From Anaerolineales bacterium (lineage in GTDB: Bacteria > Chloroflexota > Anaerolineae > Aggregatilineales > UBA2796): a stretch of 64,000 nucleotides of DNA. This document shows, piece after piece, positions 10,762 through 12,702 of this stretch (positions within the stretch are counted from its first letter, which is position 1; each line of letters starts with the position of its first letter). The notes beneath the pieces are model-generated. The model saw only the letters and a list, made by a program, of their open reading frames with translations. It ran no database searches and was not told the origin of the DNA. The stretch spans positions 124,001-188,000 of the forward strand of contig JABTTZ010000004.1 of NCBI GenBank assembly GCA_015075625.1, in the 5' to 3' direction. Both the position numbers and the translations under genes were made by a program.

Positions 10762-10790
10762 TTGACAGCGCACGCTCTTTTCCCTAAAAT
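10762..10790 (+). promoter_or_regulatory. Strong sigma-70-type promoter of the ABC-F leader
   Basis: TTGACA (10762-10767), a 17-nt spacer and TAAAAT (10785-10790). This is the best consensus promoter in the window. It would start transcription near 10797, about 265 nt before the ABC-F start codon, leaving a long untranslated leader. Confidence 0.75.
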
Positions 10791-10863
10791 ACCCCTTAGT
10801 GTTGGTGGATGTCTGTTTGAACATCTCCCGCACCTCTCAACCACAGAGTCAAGGATTACCCTC

Positions 10864-10890
10864 ATGAGATTGCTCGGCACAACAGCTTAA
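10864..10890 (+). CDS. Putative 8-residue leader peptide MRLLGTTA upstream of ABC-F
   Basis: A short frame ATG...TAA encoding MRLLGTTA, with a good Shine-Dalgarno (AAGGA, 10851-10855, 8 nt spacing), inside the ABC-F leader. Peptides beginning MRL are the minimal arrest sequence known from the ErmD leader, where macrolide-bound ribosomes stall. The tract CCCCAC right after its stop codon is complementary to the strand that would cover the ABC-F ribosome site. Translation of this frame is inferred, not shown. Confidence 0.5.
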   Translation: MRLLGTTA

Positions 10891-11050
10891 CCCCACACGG
10901 GTCTGCCTGTCTTTTGCCGACGATCTGGCGCGTCTTTTCGCGCCTCCCACCCATCACGCATACGATGCGCCACCTTCGGCATACGGCTAGGTCACCTTTC
11001 GTGGGGATCAGTTTCCTTTACCTGATCTACCTTCCCAAACCCGCGAAAGG
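10891..11050 (+). promoter_or_regulatory. Putative translational attenuator of ABC-F
   Basis: The segment CCTTTCGTGGG (10995-11005) pairs over 11 bp (one G-U) with CCCGCGAAAGG (11040-11050), which contains the AAAGG Shine-Dalgarno of the ABC-F gene. The loop holds another stem, GATCAG/CTGATC (11006-11011 with 11022-11027). The competing strand CCCCAC (10891-10896), directly after the leader stop codon, can pair with GTGGGG (11001-11006) and open the masking stem. A further hairpin, GGCGCG/CGCGCC (10927-10944), lies between. There is no U-tract, so control at translation rather than termination is the better model. Confidence 0.55.
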
Positions 11051-11061
11051 ACTCAGCAGCC

Positions 11062-12702
11062 ATGCAGTTGACTGTTTCTAATCTCTCAAAATCCTACGGT
11101 GTTCACACCGTTCTTGATTCCGTCGGGCTAACGCTTGGCACAGGGCAGCGCATCGGTCTCGTCGGCGCAAACGGTGTCGGAAAATCAACCCTCCTGAAGT
11201 GCCTCATCGGGGAGATTGAGGCGGATAGCGCTGCGATTACGCTCACCCGTGCGGCGCGGATCGGCTATCTCGCCCAGACGATGGATGGCTTTGGCGGCGC
11301 GACTCTAGGGGATGTGATCGAGGCAGCCATTGCCCCCATCCGCGCCTTAGAGCAGCGTCTTCGCCAGCTTGAAGGGGAGATGGCGCTGCGCCCCGCCGCC
11401 CTAAGCACCATTCTTGATTCCTACGCCGAATGTCTAGAGGCTTACGAATGGGCGGGTGGGCATGACCTTGCCTACCGCATTGAGCGCGTTCTGAGCGGCT
11501 TGGGCGTTGCCCATCTCCCCCGCCAGCGCCTTGTGGAAACGTGTTCTGGTGGGGAAAAAGCGCGTGTCCGCCTAGCGATGCTGCTTTTGGGATCGCCCGA
11601 TATGCTGCTCTTAGACGAACCCACGAATCATCTCGATGCGCTGAGTTTGGCATGGTTGGAGCGCTATCTGGCTGCCTCCCACAGTGCCATGTTGATCGTC
11701 TCTCATGATCGGCATTTCCTCAACCAGACGGTGAACGCCATTTTGGAAATTGATGAACACACCCATGCCCTAAAACGCTACAGTGGGAACTATGACGCCT
11801 ACCTTGAGGCAAAACGGCTGGAACGCGCCCGCTGGCTTGAGGACTATGCCCGCCAAGAGGAACAAATCAAGGAACTCCGCCATGCAATCAAGGTGGAGGC
11901 GCGGCAGGTTGCCCACAACCGCCCCCCGAAAGATGGCGATAAATTGGTCTACAACGGGAAAAAGGCAAATGTCGAATCGACCATCGCCCGCCGCGTCCAC
12001 AACGCGGAGGAACGCTTGCGGCGGATTGAGGCAGATCCCGTCCCCAAACCGCCCGATCCGTTGATCTTTGATGCCGATTTCGATCCCGCCGCTTTTGCTG
12101 GTCAGTTCCCGCTGATCGTCTCTGGAGTAGAGAAGGCATTTGGTGGGCGGTGCATCTTGCGCCATGTTTCCTTCGTCGTGGGAACACAAGCACGTATTCT
12201 GATCATCGGTGAAAACGGGGTGGGAAAGTCAACCTTGCTGCGCATCTTGGCGGGGGTGATGCCCCCCGATAGAGGGAGCATCACGCGCCACCCGCAAACA
12301 CGACTTGGCTACCTTGATCAGGAATGTGAATCGCTCTCGCCAACGCTGACGCTCTTTGACGCCTACCGCGCCGGACTGCTCGGAACAGAACAGCAGCACA
12401 AGGCGGTCTTGCTCTCCTCTGGCTTGTTTCGCTATGCCGATCTCGACAAGCGGATCGCCGCGCTCAGCAGCGGGCAAAAACGGAAGGTGCAGATCGCCCG
12501 CACCATTGCCGAACGCGCCAACCTCCTGCTAGTGGACGAACCGACGAACTACATCAGTTTTGATGTCTTGGAATCATTCGAGGCGGCACTTCGTACCTTC
12601 CCCGGCGCGGTGATCGCCGTCTCTCATGATCGTCGTTTTCGGGAGGCATTTGCCGGAGAGGTATGGGAGTTGCGGGAAGGGGCGCTGCACACCCTTTCAT
12701 AA
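11062..12702 (+). CDS. ABC-F family ATPase, probable ribosome-protection type
   Basis: 546 residues, two ABC domains and no membrane segment, as in ABC-F proteins that bind the ribosomal E site. Domain 1 has Walker A GANGVGKST (35-43), signature CSGGEKARVRLAM and Walker B LLLDEPTNHLD. A charged inter-domain linker follows (about 240-330), then domain 2 with Walker A GENGVGKST, signature LSSGQKRKVQIA and a divergent Walker B LLLVDEPTNYISFDVLE. The second half (EPTN-x-x-S... then TFPGAVIAVSHDRRF) resembles the macrolide/lincosamide-resistance ABC-F group of actinobacteria (TlrC, CarA) more than housekeeping EttA or Uup. The regulated leader supports an antibiotic-inducible role. Substrate class is inferred; a housekeeping ABC-F remains possible. 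Confidence 0.85.
   Translation: MQLTVSNLSKSYGVHTVLDSVGLTLGTGQRIGLVGANGVGKSTLLKCLIGEIEADSAAITLTRAARIGYLAQTMDGFGGATLGDVIEAAIAPIRALEQRLRQLEGEMALRPAALSTILDSYAECLEAYEWAGGHDLAYRIERVLSGLGVAHLPRQRLVETCSGGEKARVRLAMLLLGSPDMLLLDEPTNHLDALSLAWLERYLAASHSAMLIVSHDRHFLNQTVNAILEIDEHTHALKRYSGNYDAYLEAKRLERARWLEDYARQEEQIKELRHAIKVEARQVAHNRPPKDGDKLVYNGKKANVESTIARRVHNAEERLRRIEADPVPKPPDPLIFDADFDPAAFAGQFPLIVSGVEKAFGGRCILRHVSFVVGTQARILIIGENGVGKSTLLRILAGVMPPDRGSITRHPQTRLGYLDQECESLSPTLTLFDAYRAGLLGTEQQHKAVLLSSGLFRYADLDKRIAALSSGQKRKVQIARTIAERANLLLVDEPTNYISFDVLESFEAALRTFPGAVIAVSHDRRFREAFAGEVWELREGALHTLS

Follow-up and report, generated by a model that had tools for sequence, protein, structure and literature searches.

Drug-responsive leaders of ABC-F genes are known from Firmicutes and Actinobacteria, and translational attenuators of the ermC type follow a logic in which hairpins 1:2 and 3:4 alternate with hairpin 2:3 and the Shine-Dalgarno (SD) sequence is masked. 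Two ABC-F genes, vmlR of Bacillus subtilis and lmrC of Streptomyces lincolnensis, are controlled by ribosome-mediated attenuation (PMC9226507; PMC8546547). The vmlR leader combines an anti-antiterminator, an antiterminator, a terminator and an SD hairpin (PMC9226507): its short upstream open reading frame (uORF), whose sequence is largely interchangeable, lies within the anti-antiterminator stem, a stalled ribosome permits the downstream antiterminator, and a further hairpin sequesters the ABC-F SD until it is opened by alternative pairing. Lincosamide, streptogramin A and pleuromutilin act as inducers of lmrC, whose uORF overlaps the terminator and has to be translated for termination to occur (PMC8546547). 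A leader peptide also precedes the ABC-F gene msrD (PMC10314930), and both erm and msrD leaders rely on specific arrest peptides (PMC10314930, PMC8298421).

Here we analysed the leader of an ABC-F gene in a 64,000-nucleotide stretch of DNA, hereafter the window. We propose, with a probability of about three in four, that it is a ribosome-mediated attenuator of an ABC-F ribosome-protection gene and that it acts at translation in this genome. Judged from the sequence, its logic would be that of vmlR and its output that of the erm translational attenuators; the open-licence literature that we searched describes no such leader in this lineage. Set beside the window leader by description, vmlR differs in having a terminator in addition to its SD hairpin and a 3-codon uORF, whereas the window has an 8-codon uORF, an anti-mask helix of about 44 nt and no recognisable terminator. 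This last trait also separates it from lmrC, with which it would share ribosome-mediated attenuation of an ABC-F gene. Like ermC- and ermD-type leaders, it shows the potential for 1:2/3:4 versus 2:3 pairing and an SD mask but, unlike the erm and msrD leaders, it belongs to a set of relatives with no conserved peptide.

Promoter, uORF and ABC-F gene

The upstream part of the leader and the gene itself comprise the following features.

10762-10790, + strand: sigma70-type promoter TTGACA-17-TAAAAT (TTGACA at 10762-10767, 17-nt spacer, TAAAAT at 10785-10790)
10799-10833, + strand: predicted 5' hairpin (minimum free energy, MFE, fold), aligned with the 5' segment (GGCG...CCCC) that relatives conserve
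10851-10855, + strand: SD of the uORF, AAGGA
10864-10890, + strand: uORF MRLLGTTA*, ATGAGATTGCTCGGCACAACAGCTTAA; relatives carry one of 7-12 codons in the equivalent position
11062-12702, + strand: ABC-F ATPase of 546 aa, ribosomal protection-like (NCBIfam NF000355, 417.6 bits, cut-off 380)

The promoter is the sole sigma70-like match in the region (0.2 expected), and its -10 box lies 73 nt from the uORF. Both the promoter and the 8-codon frame with its SD were found where an earlier note on this DNA had placed them. The putative uORF, a short frame with an SD between the promoter and the ABC-F gene, is conserved in position among relatives.

The gene at 11062-12702 is probably a ribosome-protection (ABC-F) gene, and we infer a function in resistance. 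The top-scoring model for its product is TlrC/CarA/OleB/SrmB, at a score below the cut-off of that model, and a search of the contigs of the genome with this single protein gave remote matches only. By score, the nearest relatives of solved structure are EttA and YbiT, which, together with the variety of uORF peptides described below, would suit a housekeeping ABC-F gene whose leader senses a non-drug cue such as amino-acid starvation or general translation stress. We consider such a cue unlikely: NCBIfam models of the producer/ribosomal-protection type scored 454.8 and 417.6 bits compared to 308.5 bits for EttA, the uORF contains no run of regulatory codons, and known ABC-F leaders of like build sense ribosome inhibitors.

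Predicted folding and proposed switch

Downstream of the uORF start, the leader RNA can be divided into four strands and two additional hairpins.

10867-10879, + strand: strand 1, the 5' half of the uORF and 5' arm of stem P1 (MFE, simulated transcription, swap test)
10891-10936, + strand: strand 2, the anti-mask, from the first base past the uORF stop; includes CCCCAC (10891-10896)
10915-10926, + strand: 3' arm of P1, inside strand 2 (MFE, swap test, simulated transcription)
10927-10944, + strand: hairpin GGCGCG-TCTTTT-CGCGCC (MFE; also in the same-genus relative L010)
10962-11006, + strand: strand 3, which can pair with strand 2 (-49.4 kcal/mol) and whose 3' end forms the masking strand
10995-11005, + strand: 5' arm of the SD-masking stem, CCTTTCGTGGG, complementary to CCCGCGAAAGG at 11040-11050 with one G-U
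11006-11027, + strand: inner hairpin GATCAG/CTGATC stacked on the masking stem (arms 11006-11011/11022-11027, 6 bp)
11040-11050, + strand: strand 4, CCCGCGAAAGG, 3' arm of the masking stem, with AAAGG as the ABC-F SD

The SD of the ABC-F gene is thus predicted to be sequestered in a stem, and a segment further upstream could pair instead with the 5' arm of that stem, as in an ermC-type translational attenuator. The 11-bp masking stem with one G-U had been reported in the earlier note and lies at the place given there; the inner 6-bp stem extends the mask. The complementarity of CCCCAC with GTGGGG (11001-11006), also reported before, is present and forms the end of the helix between 10891-10936 and 10962-11006. 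Taken alone this pairing is unremarkable, with p = 0.0015 when the target was shuffled and 0.26 when the short strand was shuffled. The entire strand 2:3 helix, a complementarity of about 44 nt in the window, compares with -26.5 ± 3.8 kcal/mol for shuffled sequences; none of the 2000 shuffles, whichever strand was shuffled, reached its stability (z about -6). This helix, the inner stem, P1 and the GGCGCG-CGCGCC hairpin are additions to the elements described earlier. The MFE of the whole leader was lower than that of all 200 shuffles (z -3.8) and the mask hairpin also stood out from its shuffles (z -3.6), while P1, considered in the window alone, was marginal (p about 0.03-0.06).

We then folded the growing transcript. 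Without a ribosome, P1 had a probability of 0.86-1.0 and the outer strand 2:3 pairing one of 0.03-0.13 once its 3' partner existed. When the RNA was covered up to 10882, the outer 2:3 pairing reached 0.88-1.0 from the transcription of 11008 until 11047 appeared. Once strand 4 was complete, the mask won over the outer pairing at equilibrium (-69.4 vs -61.5 kcal/mol, P 0.99), whether or not a ribosome was present. These simulations predict mutually exclusive structures that are set by occupancy of the uORF, with an equilibrium that closes the mask. Since equilibrium favours the complete mask over the outer pairing, the ON state must be kinetic; and since the long helix overlaps the masking strand, the window leader looks like a translational version of the switch.

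In the mechanism that we propose, a ribosome in drug-free cells would complete the 8-codon uORF and depart, P1 would form and strand 3, left free, would mask the ABC-F SD (off). A drug-bound ribosome stalled on the first uORF codons would instead cover strand 1, so that strand 2 would capture strand 3 during transcription, and strand 4 would emerge unpaired and permit ribosome loading (on) while the kinetic trap lasts. Because the mask wins at equilibrium, this would work only if ribosome loading on the emerging SD outpaces strand exchange. The earlier proposal that CCCCAC opens the mask gains strength, as this motif lies within the long complementarity, which is predicted to pair when the uORF is covered, though at equilibrium the mask prevails. 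Its OFF state, a ribosome covering CCCCAC, has to be corrected: such coverage would not be the sole cause, P1 forming after the ribosome has departed. A mask that closes at equilibrium in every state, together with the loss of the terminator, could also indicate that the switch has decayed here and that the SD stem merely sets a low constant expression. We regard such decay as improbable, as it would hardly leave 44-nt near-complementary strands overlapping the mask, and the promoter, the uORF and their spacing are intact.

Between uORF and gene, the best hairpin in the window had -9.4 kcal/mol and was poorer as an intrinsic terminator than the shuffle median (-12.3), and neither the masking stem nor the GGCGCG hairpin is followed by a U tract; a weak candidate is formed by 10915-10930 plus GTCTTTT. 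The window copy appears to lack the terminator common to most of its relatives, a combination of SD mask and missing terminator that is known from one sequence, the same-genus leader L010 ending in a terminator-like element. Given the terminator-like elements of relatives, that of L010 included, and the weak candidate, transcription might be attenuated in the window as well, through a weak or cryptic terminator. The poor quality of the best hairpin and the missing U tracts make this doubtful, and we favour control at translation.

Leaders of homologous genes

We compared the leader with those of about 45 homologues (49-62% identity) from genomes of the same order and class. Upstream of most of the genes from the same order, a TTGACA/TATAAT promoter is followed by a conserved GGCG + CCCC segment, a GAAAGG and an ATG-started uORF; past the stop codon there is often CGGATTACCCCGG-TGCTG and then a terminator ending in GGCGTTTTTGATTC. 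The uORFs mostly have 7-12 codons and, in most of 40 homologous leaders, the end of the -10 box lies 62-80 nt 5' of the uORF. When this geometry (promoter, spacing, SD and short uORF) was tested automatically, 28 of 42 close homologues had it, against 1 of 420 shuffles, as did 4 of 14 intermediate ones and, in a second ABC-F clade (~35% identity), 8 of 15 genes; among all 710 shuffles there were 2 passes. In the genome itself 35 places match promoter and ATG; among the 30 loci retrieved, a short uORF preceded by an SD was found at just two places besides the window leader. In homologous genes of another order (family f45) the leader is not clearly present, and neither the window leader nor 14 relatives matched Rfam at gathering score. 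The leader belongs to a set of putative RNA switches that is widespread in the order and apparently undescribed.

Pairing was then examined across these leaders. The 5' half of the uORF pairs better with its own than with swapped post-stop RNA (p = 3.8e-7 for 40 curated leaders, uncorrected for kinship), and so does the 5' arm of the terminator with its own rather than a swapped post-stop strand (p = 2e-5 and 9e-7 for 28 leaders including the window, kinship again uncorrected). Terminators of -18 kcal/mol or lower occur in 27 of 40 leaders compared to 15 of 200 shuffles. Base changes that preserve pairing are seen between L053 (GATTATCCT/AGGATAATC) and L061 (GATTACCC/GGGTAATC); alignment-wide covariation was sought with RNAalifold on 36 leaders and gave no consensus structure. 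In most relatives, a terminator lies downstream of the uORF and P1, and its 5' arm would act as strand 3, making the leader a transcription switch. A conserved GATTC directly 3' of the terminator U tract (TTTTTGATTC) was observed in about 28 leaders, e.g. L055, L065 and L047; it sits past the usual termination point.

The earlier note had looked to conservation of both the peptide start and the stems. The architecture, namely promoter, uORF and post-stop switch strands, is kept, but the MRL start is not: among the 40 leaders it is found in the window only, the others encoding peptides as diverse as MTTDSSSK, MRRTSNNR, MENRSNNR, MEIASNNR and, in the same genus, MRAISHK. The note had related this start to macrolide arrest as in ErmD. 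In an arrest of the ErmDL kind, an MRL nascent chain would stall the ribosome beside a macrolide and the peptide sequence would be the sensor. Many relatives do start with MR, but this recurrence (ATGCGC) is equally explicable by P1 pairing. Moreover, MRLLGTTA lacks the second positive residue of the +X+ (Arg/Lys-X-Arg/Lys) macrolide motif of the ErmDL and MefAL arrest peptides. ErmDL-type ketolide stalling uses Arg-X-Arg, and stalling by telithromycin requires Arg-Leu-Arg where the window has MRLL; with erythromycin the motif is less critical (PMC8298421), so a macrolide response may still occur. Such peptide-specific arrest is very unlikely, and MRL was rejected as the sensor. As the amino acids encoded by the uORFs vary among relatives, a response to drugs, which we infer, would more likely involve inhibitors of the peptidyl-transferase centre (lincosamides, pleuromutilins, streptogramin A) than macrolides. 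Several different uORF sequences supported the induction of vmlR, and the inducing drugs stall ribosomes at initiation (PMC9226507).

Other ABC-F leaders

In the second ABC-F clade (about 35% identity; L025, L026, L031, L033, L034, L037 and L038), leaders of the same geometry sit some 200 nt 5' of the gene; their -10 boxes read TACAAT, the 5' segment is GTCGGGGCGGGA, and the uORFs have 8-9 codons, e.g. MVRNEVNNR. A different, attenuator-like leader precedes the other ABC-F gene of the genome (L127, at G000:C2:492702-494348, 32% identical); of 154 genomes from the order, 93 have an orthologue of this gene. In L127 and the orthologues L128-L156, a simple scan found a leaderless-looking uORF about 7 nt past the -10 box at 27 of 30 loci. 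These uORFs have 22-31 codons and encode a peptide starting M[IV]YF S...LS, with third codon positions varying most; near their end, GTGCGCC has its complement, GGGCGCAC, in a terminator lying downstream.

Whether ribosome-mediated attenuation is general for ABC-F genes in the order, across at least three clades, with two unrelated designs and exchange of terminator and SD mask, appears evenly balanced to us. One of the two designs has a short uORF behind a fixed 5' segment, the other a leaderless uORF of 22-31 codons with a conserved peptide start. If the generalisation is true, the window exemplifies a shift from transcriptional to translational control by swapping the terminator for an SD mask. 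With some 40-50 natural leaders of constant geometry and varied peptides, one could ask whether drug class, codon or RNA is the cue and by what route a terminator output gives way to an SD mask or the reverse. Their retention suggests that environmental bacteria with no known role as drug producers or pathogens encounter ribosome inhibitors so frequently that such switches are maintained.

Further arrangements were observed at more distant loci. In L084 and L086, from another order of the class, tandem hairpins CGGTCACGGG..CCCGTGGCCGTTTTT lie upstream of the homologous gene, following the ORF MKFNHTGMVLSFLLERAC in L086, which suggests a third design. In L018, a distant homologue (39%), the gene is preceded at about 100 nt by a 4-codon uORF, MFIQ, whose end, TTCAGTAACAA, is complementary to TTGTTACTGAA, which overlaps the SD of the gene; this is possibly another translational version.
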